From Lachnospiraceae bacterium (GTDB lineage: Bacteria > Bacillota > Clostridia > Lachnospirales > Lachnospiraceae), in assembly GCA_016288005.1 (NCBI GenBank), contig JAEEXY010000025.1:1-39731 (forward strand): a stretch of 39,731 bases of DNA, written 5' to 3'. The position numbers and the translations under genes are program-made. Every line of letters begins with the position of its first letter. The first letter of the stretch is position 1. The notes below the pieces were generated by a model, which saw only the letters and a program-made list of their open reading frames with translations, did no database searches and was not told the DNA's origin. Positions 19,067-32,683 of this stretch are shown one piece after another.

Positions 19067-21379
19067 ATGAGGATCAGATACAGAAATAGCAGCTATAGTA
19101 TCAGGCAAATGTTCCGGGAGATCATCCCAGCGGTTATCATAATGGCGGCGGTCGTTTTCATGACAGCCTGTGCAGGGAACGGACGCGGAAATGTAAATGA
19201 AACAAACAAAGGTATAACGGCCGGTGTATCTGCCGACAGTAACAGTGTGTCCGATACTGCAGGAAGCATAGATACAGGCAGCAAATCGGGCAGTAACGGC
19301 ATGTCTGATAATACCGGCAGCACAGACTCAACGGGAGATACTTCGTCTTCCGACTCGGGTGCAACAACCGCCACTCCCGGTAACGAAATAAACGATAATC
19401 CTGCGGCATCTCAGGACAACTCTGCCAATAATTCCGATGCATCTGCGGATAATACCGAATCCCAAAACCGGATCACCGATCCCGGCATCCCCGTCTCTCA
19501 CCCCGAGGCTGCGTACACGGTTCCGACCGATATCCCGGTTATCGAAAAAAGCATCTCTTTCTCACTCCCCTCAGGCTTTTATCCCGAAGAGTTCGACTTA
19601 GAGCTCGGCATTGCCTCAGATGCAGCCGCCCCCGAGGGTTCCGGCGCGTCCTCCGGCCACATATTCTTCACTCTCGACGGCAGCGATCCCGCTCAGAGCC
19701 ATACCGCTATAGAGTACACTTCCGCGATCCGCATCTATGCGCCTCGCAGCGTGATCCGTGATAATGCCGTGGTCCCAGGCCCCGAAAACATCGCCTCGGC
19801 CGTCGATCCGCTCCTCTTTTCCGGCAATTACAGCGCAGTGGGGCCTGTCGGATACAATTTCGTAAGCACGGTCAGCACGCCTGATGAAAGCGCCGCAGAT
19901 AAATGCACTGTCATCCGTGCCGCCCTCAGATACGCCGACGGCAGCTTCGGTCCCGAGAGCGGCGCGGTGTATTTCATCGGCATTCCCTCAGATCATATCC
20001 CCGGCATAGCCGAAAGCTGCAGCGCCGCGGGGTATCCCCTGTCGGTCATCAGCATCGCGACCGCGCACGACGGCCTGTTTGACAACGAAAACGGCATCTA
20101 TGTCAAAGGAAAGATATTTGACGACGCATTAAACGAATACATTTCGGCAAACGGCAGGATAAAGGACGGCGAAGTCGCGCGCTCTCTGGACGCCAATTAC
20201 AAACAGCACGGAAAAGCCTGGGAGCTCAAAGCCTCCGTCACGATGTTCGAGGCCGACGGCAGCGGCGCCGCCGAAGTCATTTCCCAGGTCTGCGGCCTGC
20301 GCGTGCAGGGCAATTACTCGAGGTCAGACCTGCAAAAAGGCTTCAGACTGTATGCCAGAGGCGAATACGGCAAGAAAAACTTTAAATACCCTGTCTTCGG
20401 TGCAGGCTACACCAACGCGGCCGGCGAAGTAATGGACAGATTCGACACACTCGTGCTGCGCGCCGGCGGCAACTGCGCATTTACTGCCAAATTCAGCGAT
20501 GTTTTCTGGCAGTCCCTGCTGGGCAATTCCAATTGCGAAACGCAGCGCAGCCGGCCCTGCGTCGTATACCTCAACGGCGAATACTGGGGCCTGTATGTCC
20601 TGCAGGAAGACTACAGCGACGACTGGTTTGAGGACAAATACGGAGTGGATAAAGACAGCGTCGTGATCTATAAGGGCGACGCCGAAAAATACGCGAGCGG
20701 CTACAAACTGGACGAAGGCACGCTCCCCGAGGGTGCCTTGGAAGACTATTATTTCAGCGAACTGGAGTATATCTTCAGCCGCTGCAAAGACCTGTCGTCA
20801 GATGAGGATTATGAGGCTTTCTGCCGCATCGTGGATGAGGAGTCGGTCATGGATTATTTCGCGGCCGAATGCTGGATAAACAACAAATGGGACTGGCCCG
20901 GCAAAAACTGGTCAATGTGGAAAGCCGCCCCCACCGATGATTACGACGGACGCTGGCGGTTCATGTTCTATGATATGGAGTTCGGCGGCGTGAGCGGCTC
21001 CTCCGACGCCAAAACCAACACGGTAAAGGAGGACAACTACAAGCCCGAGGGCCTGCTCGACCGCGGCACCAACAATCCCGCAGTCCTCTGCTTCGCCTGG
21101 CTCATGACCAACAAGGGCTTCAAAGACCGTTTCTGCGCCCGCCTCACAGCCCTTTCCGAGAGCTGCTTTGAAAAAGAAACCGCTCTTGCGCGGCTGGCCG
21201 AGTATGAAGCGATCTACGCCCCTCTGTACGACCAATTCTTCGCCCGCTATCCCGGCAGCGGCAGCACCGACAATGCCGTAAACGGCGGCTATGCGTCGAT
21301 CAGGTGCATACGGGATTTCCTGAACGGCAGGGCGGGGAATATATACAGGCTGACGGATTACATCAACAAAAAGAGATAG
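19067..21379 (+). CDS. CotH-kinase family lipoprotein
   Basis: This 770-residue exported protein has a signal helix (residues about 18-34) and a lipobox ending at Cys35 (FMTAC). A long S/T/N/D-rich spacer (about 36-150) follows, then a chitobiase-C-terminal-like beta domain (about 165-310; FTLDGSDPAQS) and a CotH kinase domain (about 330-740). CotH signatures include GLRVQGNYSR, FDTLVLRAGGN, NGEYWGLYVLQEDY, NNKWDWPGKNW and FYDMEFGG. CotH kinases are secreted protein kinase-like enzymes, known from spore coats; many anaerobes carry surface-anchored versions, some linked to extracellular polysaccharide or cellulosome-like systems. Which protein this one phosphorylates is unknown. GGGGAAAT precedes the ATG. 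The gene lies on the plus strand inside the minus-strand superoperon, between rpsO and ribF. Confidence 0.9.
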   Translation: MRIRYRNSSYSIRQMFREIIPAVIIMAAVVFMTACAGNGRGNVNETNKGITAGVSADSNSVSDTAGSIDTGSKSGSNGMSDNTGSTDSTGDTSSSDSGATTATPGNEINDNPAASQDNSANNSDASADNTESQNRITDPGIPVSHPEAAYTVPTDIPVIEKSISFSLPSGFYPEEFDLELGIASDAAAPEGSGASSGHIFFTLDGSDPAQSHTAIEYTSAIRIYAPRSVIRDNAVVPGPENIASAVDPLLFSGNYSAVGPVGYNFVSTVSTPDESAADKCTVIRAALRYADGSFGPESGAVYFIGIPSDHIPGIAESCSAAGYPLSVISIATAHDGLFDNENGIYVKGKIFDDALNEYISANGRIKDGEVARSLDANYKQHGKAWELKASVTMFEADGSGAAEVISQVCGLRVQGNYSRSDLQKGFRLYARGEYGKKNFKYPVFGAGYTNAAGEVMDRFDTLVLRAGGNCAFTAKFSDVFWQSLLGNSNCETQRSRPCVVYLNGEYWGLYVLQEDYSDDWFEDKYGVDKDSVVIYKGDAEKYASGYKLDEGTLPEGALEDYYFSELEYIFSRCKDLSSDEDYEAFCRIVDEESVMDYFAAECWINNKWDWPGKNWSMWKAAPTDDYDGRWRFMFYDMEFGGVSGSSDAKTNTVKEDNYKPEGLLDRGTNNPAVLCFAWLMTNKGFKDRFCARLTALSESCFEKETALARLAEYEAIYAPLYDQFFARYPGSGSTDNAVNGGYASIRCIRDFLNGRAGNIYRLTDYINKKR

Positions 21380-21382
21380 GAA

Positions 21383-21426
21383 AAAGGCATAGAGCTCATC
21401 ACAACGGGTTCTATGCCTTTCTTTTA
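21383..21426 (+). terminator. Terminator of the CotH-kinase gene
   Basis: Perfect 11-bp arms at 21383-21393 and 21410-21420 (AAAGGCATAGA and its complement) are followed by CTTTTA. It starts 4 bp after the stop codon. Confidence 0.9.
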
Positions 21427-21454
21427 TTGACAAAACAGACTGATGTGATATACA
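21427..21454 (+). promoter_or_regulatory. Promoter of the nucleotidyltransferase module
   Basis: A perfect TTGACA (21427-21432), a 16-bp spacer and TATACA (21449-21454). It lies directly after the CotH terminator and 42 bp before the first module gene, so the two-gene module is an independent transcription unit. Confidence 0.7.
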
Positions 21455-21495
21455 ATTACCCTACATTAATAGATTTTTTCTTTGAGGTGTTGTGT

Positions 21496-22146
21496 ATGGA
21501 CAATTACTCAGATGCATATGTTTCATTAAAAAAAGAGTTGTCAAAACTGGAGAACAAACTGGAAATGATGCCTAAGGGTACGCTTCGCAGGCGTATTATC
21601 AACGGCAGAGAATACTGCTATCTGCAATACAGAGACGGTGATCATGTCAGGAGTCGGTATGTTAAACCTGACGACATATCCGATGTTTGCAGGATGATTA
21701 AAGACAGAAAAAAAACAGAACAGAGCATCCATGTCATACGCTCAAAGTTAGATATCTATTCAAGAATTCTTGGCATTCACAGAACATATCGTCCAGTTAA
21801 AAATGTGAACTATGAAGATTACACCCTCTTTATGTCAACGGTGGCGCATGATTATAAGACTCTGTCGATCGATGTTTTCAGTGAAAAATATGATACAACC
21901 AAATACCGCGGACTCAATAAGCGATATCTGCTGGCTTTCCTTGATTATATCAATGGGATTGAACGGCAAAACACACGTAAGACAAACGATCTTGTGTTAG
22001 ATCCGTATACTTATCTGCTTTACTATAAATACGGCGACAAGACTGTCTTGGAAGAAGAACTCAAAAAAGCCATCCCTGCTTTTTTGAACAGAGGTTTATT
22101 GATCACAAATGTTCAGGAGGCTGTAAATGGGACATTTGACAGATGA
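21496..22146 (+). CDS. Uncharacterised partner of a nucleotidyltransferase (putative toxin-antitoxin or defence module)
   Basis: This 216-residue protein is not one I can assign to a named family. It begins with a predicted coiled coil (residues about 8-30, SLKKELSKLENKLEMM), then a basic beta-rich segment (about 31-60: PKGTLRRRI, REYCYLQYRDGDHVRSRY), then a helical C-terminal half. The basic hairpin segment could bind nucleic acid. ATG 21496 is chosen because GAGGTG lies 6 nt upstream; the frame extends to 21304 but that part overlaps the CotH gene. Its 3' end overlaps the nucleotidyltransferase gene by 20 bp, as in tightly coupled two-gene modules. Codon use is clearly more A/T-rich than in the neighbours, suggesting recent transfer. 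A role as antitoxin or regulator is inferred from context only. Confidence 0.75.
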   Translation: MDNYSDAYVSLKKELSKLENKLEMMPKGTLRRRIINGREYCYLQYRDGDHVRSRYVKPDDISDVCRMIKDRKKTEQSIHVIRSKLDIYSRILGIHRTYRPVKNVNYEDYTLFMSTVAHDYKTLSIDVFSEKYDTTKYRGLNKRYLLAFLDYINGIERQNTRKTNDLVLDPYTYLLYYKYGDKTVLEEELKKAIPAFLNRGLLITNVQEAVNGTFDR

Positions 22147-22690
22147 AGAATATCTGGACAGAGAGAATATAGATTTTTATTTTTCTATGCTTGCCGACGA
22201 ATTAATAAAAACAGGTCTGGGCAAACACAGAATATTGGTCGTTGGTGGTGCTGCTATGGCACTTAAGTTTAGAGACGGACGTTCCACCGTCGATATCGAT
22301 GTCTGTTTTCGGGAGCAGAACAATCTATATTCATGCTGCACACAAATTGCCAAAAAATATAATCTACCTGCAGATTGGATCAACACCGATGTTATGCACT
22401 CCGATTCTTTTTCCTTTGCCCTGTTTGAAAAGGCAGAGTTTTACCGCAACTATGGTGATATTCTGGATGTCTATGTAGCTTGCGACATTGATCTGTATTG
22501 CATGAAAATAGTATCTTTCCGTCCCAAAGATATACAGGATATGGAAGTTCTGGCGAATTCATTACGAACAACAAACACTTCTCAGGTTGACATAATCCAA
22601 AACTTCATACGTTTATATGGTGACGAATACTTTTTGCGTAATGATGAACGAAAGCTGCGTCTAGTCAGACTGCAAACTAGTACAGAATAA
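22127..22690 (+). CDS. Nucleotidyltransferase, DUF6036/AbiEii-like
   Basis: The 187-residue product shows the nucleotidyltransferase core: ILVVGGAAMALKF (residues about 38-50) followed by RSTVDIDV, the R-x-T-x-D-I-D signature shared by DUF6036 and AbiEii/MenT-type enzymes. Further acidic and helical parts follow (ILDVYVACDIDLYCMKIVSF). AbiEii/MenT enzymes transfer nucleotides to tRNA or proteins and act as toxins in abortive infection; DUF6036 proteins are mostly untested. AGGAGG lies 6 nt before the ATG, inside the upstream gene. The gene is A/T-rich and ends 22 bp from the truncated ribF on the other strand. Fold assignment is good; toxin function is inferred. Confidence 0.8.
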   Translation: MGHLTDEEYLDRENIDFYFSMLADELIKTGLGKHRILVVGGAAMALKFRDGRSTVDIDVCFREQNNLYSCCTQIAKKYNLPADWINTDVMHSDSFSFALFEKAEFYRNYGDILDVYVACDIDLYCMKIVSFRPKDIQDMEVLANSLRTTNTSQVDIIQNFIRLYGDEYFLRNDERKLRLVRLQTSTE

Positions 22691-31729: not shown

Positions 31730-32683
31730 CTAAGGTATACATTCAAACTCATACATCCGATACGCTCCGTCCTCATTCAAAGAAACAGCCGCGACAAAGC
31801 GTCTGATTACAATATCGGAGTCAACACCGGAGACATAAGGCGGAACTCCGTCAATATATCCCTCACATATGTATCTTCCGTCTTTTATGTACACATTTTC
31901 CAAAATCGGATTTCCGCCATAAGGGATCCAGTGCTTATAGAACAGTATCCGGTCTCCGTATCCGTATATCTCGCCTGCCATAAAGCCTGTAATCCCGTTT
32001 ATGTCAAAAAGCCGGTCTATATCCTCCTGAATATTGGAAATATAGGTAGTATACCGGGCATAGTCAGGTTCATACTCTAGCCGCAGATCTGCTTTCTGCT
32101 CCAGATAATGGACAATAAATACGAGGACAGCTTCCGTATTCTCCTGTGTAAACGAATAAAGGACCGGCTTCTTCGTAAATTGCGCAACAAATTCCTCAAG
32201 CCCTCTGATCACTTCCGAAGTTTCTGTTTTTTCTCCGTATTCTTTTATATCATCCAATATGCCCCTTATTTCTCCGGGGTTCATCTGTCCTTTTTTCAGA
32301 TGATACAGCTCGTCACCTATGCAGATCTCAGTGTCTGAGAGGATTTTTATCTTTTTCCGATCTGTCTCCTGCTGTCTGTTGTATAAAGAAATAGTGAATG
32401 AATACCCTCCCGCTTCCTTCATTGCTTCTTTGCTTTTGTACTTCAGATTACTGAGAACGTTGAATAATCTATGCAGCTTCTCCGGATCTGCATACCTCAA
32501 AATGATCTCTGCACTAGCCTCAGTCTCATCTCCGATTTCGCGATAGTATAAATAATTGAACGCGTTAAAGTCTTCTTCGCTGAATGCGGTCACAATGCCG
32601 CCTCTGCCAAAACACACATACAGGATTCCTATGATCATTAAGAATGATAAAAATGCAACCAGCGCAATTTTGCAGTTTTTCAT
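31730..32683 (-). CDS. Exported or membrane-anchored protein of unknown function
   Basis: I do not recognise this 317-residue protein. It has one N-terminal hydrophobic helix (residues about 5-25, CKIALVAFLSFLMIIGILYV) and otherwise soluble, alternating strand and helix sequence, rich in D, E and Y. No catalytic motif or cysteine pattern is evident. GGGGGAAGGGGTTAT precedes the ATG. It follows the second CapA-type gene by 39 bp on the same strand, so it is probably co-transcribed with murD and capA. It is A/T-richer than the surrounding genes. A role at the cell surface is only a guess from the N-terminal helix. Confidence 0.8.
   Translation of the reverse strand: MKNCKIALVAFLSFLMIIGILYVCFGRGGIVTAFSEEDFNAFNYLYYREIGDETEASAEIILRYADPEKLHRLFNVLSNLKYKSKEAMKEAGGYSFTISLYNRQQETDRKKIKILSDTEICIGDELYHLKKGQMNPGEIRGILDDIKEYGEKTETSEVIRGLEEFVAQFTKKPVLYSFTQENTEAVLVFIVHYLEQKADLRLEYEPDYARYTTYISNIQEDIDRLFDINGITGFMAGEIYGYGDRILFYKHWIPYGGNPILENVYIKDGRYICEGYIDGVPPYVSGVDSDIVIRRFVAAVSLNEDGAYRMYEFECIP

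Follow-up and report, generated by a model that had tools for sequence, protein, structure and literature searches.

Nucleotidyltransferase toxins of the MenT and AbiEii kind are encoded in two-gene operons, and the enzymes carry a T/S-x-D-x-D motif, a lysine and a later aspartate; for MenT1, PMC10435456 gives T39, D41, D43, K137 and D152 as the catalytic residues. The partner AbiEi represses its own operon via a winged helix-turn-helix (HTH) domain, as described in PMC7319586. Here, a gene pair of comparable design is described from positions 21,427 to 22,690 of a 39,731-nucleotide stretch of DNA (the window; contig JAEEXY010000025.1) from a Lachnospiraceae bacterium, in which the second open reading frame (ORF2) encodes a DUF6036 nucleotidyltransferase (NTase) and the first (ORF1) a partner protein of two parts. 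We favor, with modest confidence, the reading that the pair is an autoregulated, MenT/AbiEii-like NTase toxin–antitoxin operon, in which the head of ORF1 would bind the operator and its C-domain would silence ORF2.

In this model, free ORF2 would transfer nucleotides to cellular RNA, most likely the 3′ ends of tRNA, and growth would stop. The helical C-domain of ORF1 would bind and silence ORF2, and the N-terminal module of ORF1 would dimerize, bind AATTACCCTACA behind the −10 box and repress the operon. Toxicity, neutralization and operator binding are activities that we infer from sequence.

A DUF6036 nucleotidyltransferase and its partner

The initial annotation had named ORF2 as a DUF6036 NTase with an RSTVDIDV signature; the signature is present, and ORF2 matches the Pfam family DUF6036 (PF19502) with an E-value of 4e-12 and 46.7 bits, relative to a cut-off of 23.6. 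DUF6036 is the sole Pfam family found, the DUF1814/AbiEii model not being matched, and the best hit among the PADLOC AbiEii models, which have no stated cut-off, has an E-value of 1.5e-5 and covers residues 16–68 only. The residues G40-G41, R52-x-T54-x-D56-x-D58, K127 and K134-D135-x-x-D138 are invariant in 13 sequences, and T54-x-D56-x-D58, K127 and D135/D138 fit the MenT catalytic pattern (by pattern match, not superposition), so that the check on catalytic residues proposed at the outset came out in the enzyme’s favor. The spacing from the lysine to the aspartate is 8 or 11 in ORF2 versus 15 in MenT1 (PMC10435456). The predicted fold is that of an NTase toxin: the solved structure ranked first was the MenT1 toxin, tied with other entries, and MenT structures ranked above aminoglycoside nucleotidyltransferase (ANT). 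A second match to ORF2 was not found in its own draft genome.

For ORF1, Pfam gives no match at E ≤ 1. Its structural model (pLDDT 85, pTM 0.60) predicts a head, residues 1–93, built from a helix (2–23), three strands (29–35, 38–47 and 50–56) and a second helix (58–92), followed by a mostly helical C-domain at residues of about 98–216. The head, hereafter the module, is thus modeled as a helical hairpin with a basic three-stranded sheet, which agrees with the basic hairpin first read from the letters; the sheet is basic in 20 of 20 module sequences (mean +5.6), and the long helices would suit a dimer. An N-terminal winged HTH of the AbiEi type together with an AbiEi C-domain was found neither by Pfam nor in the model.

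A scan for the ORF2 family in one genome per species, across 84,980 species, confirmed 14 loci, including two distant actinobacterial ones and 12 close ones (best-segment identity 61–69%), all 12 in Lachnospiraceae. Conservation of the pair, a point raised by the initial annotation, was borne out: an ORF1 relative lies directly before ORF2 and overlaps it (by 8 bp in L056) in all 11 loci that are readable upstream, L059 being excluded as its contig starts inside the NTase gene. In L059 (1–2700), the ORF2 relative stops after about residue 131, and behind it lies what we take to be an IS66-like transposase. Within the family, 22 of 250 genomes carry a DUF6036 NTase, in 23 loci, three of them of the window’s type. 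In each of the 11 relatives, the GC of the pair is below that of its own locus, and among the 58 flanking proteins scanned, no Pfam family recurs in more than 2 at E ≤ 1e-8; taken together, the kept pair, the unrelated flanks and the low GC point to a horizontally spread islet. Recurrence in defense islands, which the initial annotation had looked for, did not emerge: among the 58 of 104 listed flanking proteins run through PADLOC, no recurrent defense neighbors were seen, and 14 models, including PDC-S27 (E-value of 5e-193) and PDC-S03, each match one flanking protein only.

The locus combines several features of toxin–antitoxin operons, namely two small overlapping genes, a conserved pair, a regulator in first position and a sporadic distribution. 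An alternative is that the pair forms an accessory two-component enzyme, with ORF1 as a regulatory or substrate-binding subunit and ORF2 nucleotidylylating a small molecule or protein much as an aminoglycoside nucleotidyltransferase does. This is unlikely in view of the ranking of MenT structures above ANT, the overlap typical of toxin–antitoxin genes, the partner’s first position, the sporadic spread and the low GC of the relatives.

Different heads, different promoter elements

In the other 20 of the 23 family NTase loci, the upstream protein has a C-domain related to that of ORF1, and 19 of these 20 partners are long enough for an N-terminal XRE/HTH domain (the Pfam HTH search, run on two of them, scored above the cut-off for L004 and just below it for L017). 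For the C-domain of these partners, a profile was built from 15 of the 20, and the other 5 were found with it. Profile against profile, the ORF1 C-domain matched that of the partners with a probability of 95.5 and a score of 48.4 over 104 columns, compared to at most 18.7 in 40 column shuffles, and the N-terminal parts gave no match in the profile comparison. When 2310 ORFs were searched with the ORF1 C-domain, the 12 best non-self matches (E up to 0.05) were all DUF6036 partners, and the next two (E of 0.053 and 0.065) were not. Because the C-domains match across partners and the heads do not, the C-domain is taken as the constant part and the head as the variable one, and the former is presumably the NTase-facing part. 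The XRE + DUF6036 pairs of Lachnospiraceae thus resemble the window pair in that a homologous C-domain precedes a homologous NTase, but they have an N-terminal XRE instead of the module, a mostly longer NTase and the palindrome CGGTnnACCG before the −10 box. In four other loci of Bacillota (L087, L088, L089 and L078), a partner of 125–126 amino acids follows the DUF6036 NTase in reversed order, and it could not be shown to be homologous to the ORF1 C-domain.

By upstream alignment, TTACCCTAC follows the −10 box at −40/−41 from the ATG in the window and in 10 of 11 relatives, versus a mean of 0.0065 of 12 loci expected from shuffles. The exception is L057, which carries TAACATACA...TGTAGGTTA. 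The longer form AATTACCCTAC is not in all 11 loci, with L049 differing in the two bases preceding TTACCCTAC, and only L048, L056 and L057 show a clear second half-site in inverted orientation. Among XRE-type promoters, 18 of 20 loci could be counted (L012 is without upstream sequence and L020 without an ORF of HTH length), and a box of the TTACCCTAC type occurs in none of the 18; CGGTnnACCG stands just before the −10 box, exactly in 11 and with at most one mismatch in 16 of them (by eye), and no module-type promoter has its exact form. On the sequence evidence, then, the promoter element differs together with the N-terminal head.

The module is by no means confined to DUF6036 partners. A search profile of 20 sequences detects it, at E ≤ 0.001 and counting weak matches, in 81 of the 299 genomes sampled from the window’s family. 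Draws from the class and the phylum gave 22 of 196 and 10 of 299 genomes, respectively; the source genome and its family were kept in these counts. Pfam searches on representatives placed module genes upstream of DUF3990, NTP_transf_8 and Fic genes, and the module itself in fusion with Fic, HipA_C, AAA_14 and AAA-ATPase_like proteins, one of them with PDDEXK_9. In genome G430, the partner of a different DUF6036 enzyme begins with the module, and relatives of that partner’s C-domain (L123–L125; 39–44% identity) occur bare, without a module; since the G430 C-domain could not be tied to that of the window, we infer that the module was acquired there independently.

Several of these arrangements deserve mention in their own right. 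In L126 (505–1806), L032 (1438–2505) and L039 (1447–2702), a standalone module gene is followed by DUF3990-like, small-protein and DUF3791-like genes (names assigned by eye, with Pfam on L029 and L139); this operon recurs and resembles a toxin–antitoxin unit, and the single open-access paper found for it names DUF3990 but not DUF3791. A standalone module gene adjoins NTP_transf_8, a second NTase family with the module, in L128 (1438–2419) and L141 (806–1818), and the module is N-terminal to HipA-like kinases (HipA_C) in L028 (82–1575) and L134 (268–1746). The source genome itself has two further module genes about 3 kb apart on contig C120 (L153 and L156), one in a frame of 637 codons that looks AAA-type by eye, the other in a frame of 332 codons in which Pfam finds a Fic domain. 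Finally, divergent module-like proteins of about 140–350 amino acids, several per genome in some hosts, were seen in G594, G604, L106–L121 and L147–L159; L112, L115, L117, L121 and L149 gave no Pfam match at E ≤ 0.01, and it is possible that this group represents further effector classes.

Upstream repeats accompany many module operons: TACCCAACA...TGTTGGGTATAAT for DUF3990 operons, TTAACCTACA for Fic-adjacent operons, GTTCCCTAA for Fic fusions and TATACCC...GGGTATAAT for AAA fusions. Promoters were tested for inverted repeats with spacers of 10–35, 200 dinucleotide shuffles per promoter and a threshold of p ≤ 0.01; the census and promoter sets contain no duplicate modules and no ORF with less than about 100 bp of upstream sequence, start codons were picked by rule, and effector classes were assigned by Pfam for representatives and otherwise by visual inspection of length and sequence. 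A first run with spacers of 4–45 gave 26 of 84, and the range was fixed at 10–35 before the hold-out, 49 promoters fetched after the idea of inverted repeats was noted, was scored. Inverted repeats were then found in 23 of 84 promoters of the first set, 21 of 49 of the hold-out and 6 of 234 controls (hold-out versus control, Fisher p of 2e-13, uncorrected for kinship of operons). Over both sets, they occur in Fic fusions (26/32), AAA fusions (11/26), Fic-adjacent operons (1/3), the window subfamily (1/12), L086 (1/1) and unassigned operons (4/42), and at this threshold in none of 13 promoters of the DUF3990 group, 2 of NTP_transf_8 and 2 of HipA; without Fic fusions, the hold-out retains 2 of 25. 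In a separate test of likeness to the window’s box, 12 DUF3990 operons had a mean best match of 7.58/10 versus 6.67 in controls (p of 1.6e-4; 4.7e-5 with n of 13 if L127, removed from the class for want of a DUF3990 gene, is kept), and p was 0.006 for AAA fusions, 0.0006 for Fic fusions and 0.07 for unassigned operons, again uncorrected for kinship. For HipA, p was 0.94, and the two promoters tested (L134 and L174) have no similar box. Module operons of some effector classes can thus be said, from their sequences, to carry related boxes or inverted repeats.

Operators differ where one effector family carries different heads, and in several classes they are related where different effectors share the module; the simplest account would be a module that reads the box. 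The module may accordingly represent an undescribed class of DNA-binding domain serving as an exchangeable autorepressor head, exchanged together with the operator in DUF6036 systems and acquired by them at least twice, a proposal that we consider about evenly balanced and, if anything, a shade doubtful. Here, a dimerizing helical hairpin would present the basic three-stranded β-sheet to TTAnCCnACA or GTTCCCTAA boxes, thereby controlling Bacillota operons for DUF6036, NTP_transf_8, DUF3990, Fic, HipA-like kinase and AAA ATPase effectors, and would take the place held by XRE or winged-HTH domains in known toxin–antitoxin systems. Two points make the proposal slightly less likely: inverted repeats at p ≤ 0.01 are absent from the DUF3990 class, and one row of that class had been misfiled.

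It is also conceivable that the pair is a toxin–antitoxin system whose module is an RNA- or protein-binding arm, for instance for its own mRNA leader. This seems rather unlikely, as in several module operons with other effectors (L032, L086 and L131) the left arm of the repeat lies upstream and the right arm overlaps the −10 box, hence outside the transcript, and as the module occupies the position of the DNA-binding domain in XRE partners. A third alternative would have the boxes read by a regulator common to the hosts, with the link to the module reflecting common descent of the operons. The common ancestry and near-identical box of the Fic-fusion operons, and the many sampled genomes from one family, would fit such a regulator; however, some boxes are alike although their effectors are unrelated, DUF6036 operons with XRE partners in the same family show a different palindrome, and the window’s 12-mer AATTACCCTACA, with at most one mismatch, occurs once in its own 3.3-Mb genome (the reversed pattern nine times). 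A host regulator is, as a result, quite improbable.

Layout and setting of the locus

The features of the locus are collected in Table 1. The private promoter proposed initially, which is of sigma-70 type, holds up: within 1.6 kb it is the best of nine promoter-like sites (4.2 on average in shuffles). The coordinates agree with the proposed 20-bp overlap of the two genes. ORF1 is counted from its ATG, the program-made ORF list beginning at a GTG at 21304.

Table 1. Coordinates of the gene pair and its control elements in the window.
Feature	Position	Strand	Basis
Intrinsic terminator of the preceding CotH-family gene	21383..21420	+	15-pair stem, then T run
Promoter of the pair (TTGACA, 18-bp spacer, TACAAT)	21427..21456	+	11/12 consensus positions
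Candidate operator AATTACCCTACA, directly behind the −10 box	21454..21465	+	TTACCCTAC in 11/12 loci
ORF1, 216-aa partner, antitoxin candidate	21496..22146	+	Model and C-domain homology
ORF2, 187-aa DUF6036 nucleotidyltransferase, toxin candidate	22127..22690	+	Pfam PF19502, invariant residues, fold

The A/T-rich codon use noted earlier is equally evident: GC at third codon positions (GC3) is 0.421 and 0.369 in the two genes, versus a mean of 0.679 (SD 0.053, lowest 0.465) in 25 other long, hand-picked window ORFs, and GC over 21427–22690 is 0.384 versus 0.533 elsewhere in the window. By Pfam, a CotH gene precedes the pair on the same strand, and FAD_syn (RibF-like), TruB, DHH, RbfA, IF-2, NusA and RimP follow on the opposite strand. 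Of the insertion into a housekeeping superoperon that had been proposed, the opposite orientation stands and the interruption does not, as the pair lies convergently behind the 3′ end of FAD_syn, the last gene of the rimP-nusA-infB-rbfA-DHH-truB-ribF run. Another window ORF, at 31730–32683, is also AT-rich (GC 0.42, GC3 0.465) and adjoins the rimP end of the superoperon. The source genome is a 3.3-Mb draft in 136 contigs with a contamination estimate of 5.98%.

Comparison with known systems

The view that DUF6036 is uncharacterized agrees with the literature, in that no paper with DUF6036, PF19502 or DUF6788 was found in open-access full text, a search outside of which most subscription journals lie; broader searches returned work on AbiE, MenAT and toxin–antitoxin systems in general. 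If the proposed reading is true, the pair adds an NTase toxin–antitoxin family for which no literature was found, and an antitoxin that swapped its DNA-binding head and operator together while keeping its presumed toxin-facing domain. If the module is a DNA-binding domain, it would also provide an operator signature with which further toxin-like operons could be sought in bacteria of the gut and rumen.

The module has weak matches to DUF6788 (PF20586) in 12 of 20 sequences at E ≤ 0.1 (best 1.2e-4), but the sole score compared with the cut-off, 17.6 bits, is below the required 27.2. Like Panacea, the hyperpromiscuous antitoxin domain described in PMC10440598, it is one domain found with many unrelated toxin-like enzymes; the differences are that ORF1 contains no Pfam domain, that the shared part stands where a DNA-binding head would, and that neutralization is ascribed to the other domain of ORF1. 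MenAT and AbiE are similar to the window pair in their two-gene operons, in the NTase motif and in the top rank of MenT1, and differ in the Pfam family of the enzyme and in the partner, since ORF1 lacks any Pfam match and its predicted head is a hairpin and sheet, not an HTH. The pair is thus probably a variant of the NTase toxin–antitoxin systems with a possibly new DNA-binding domain.
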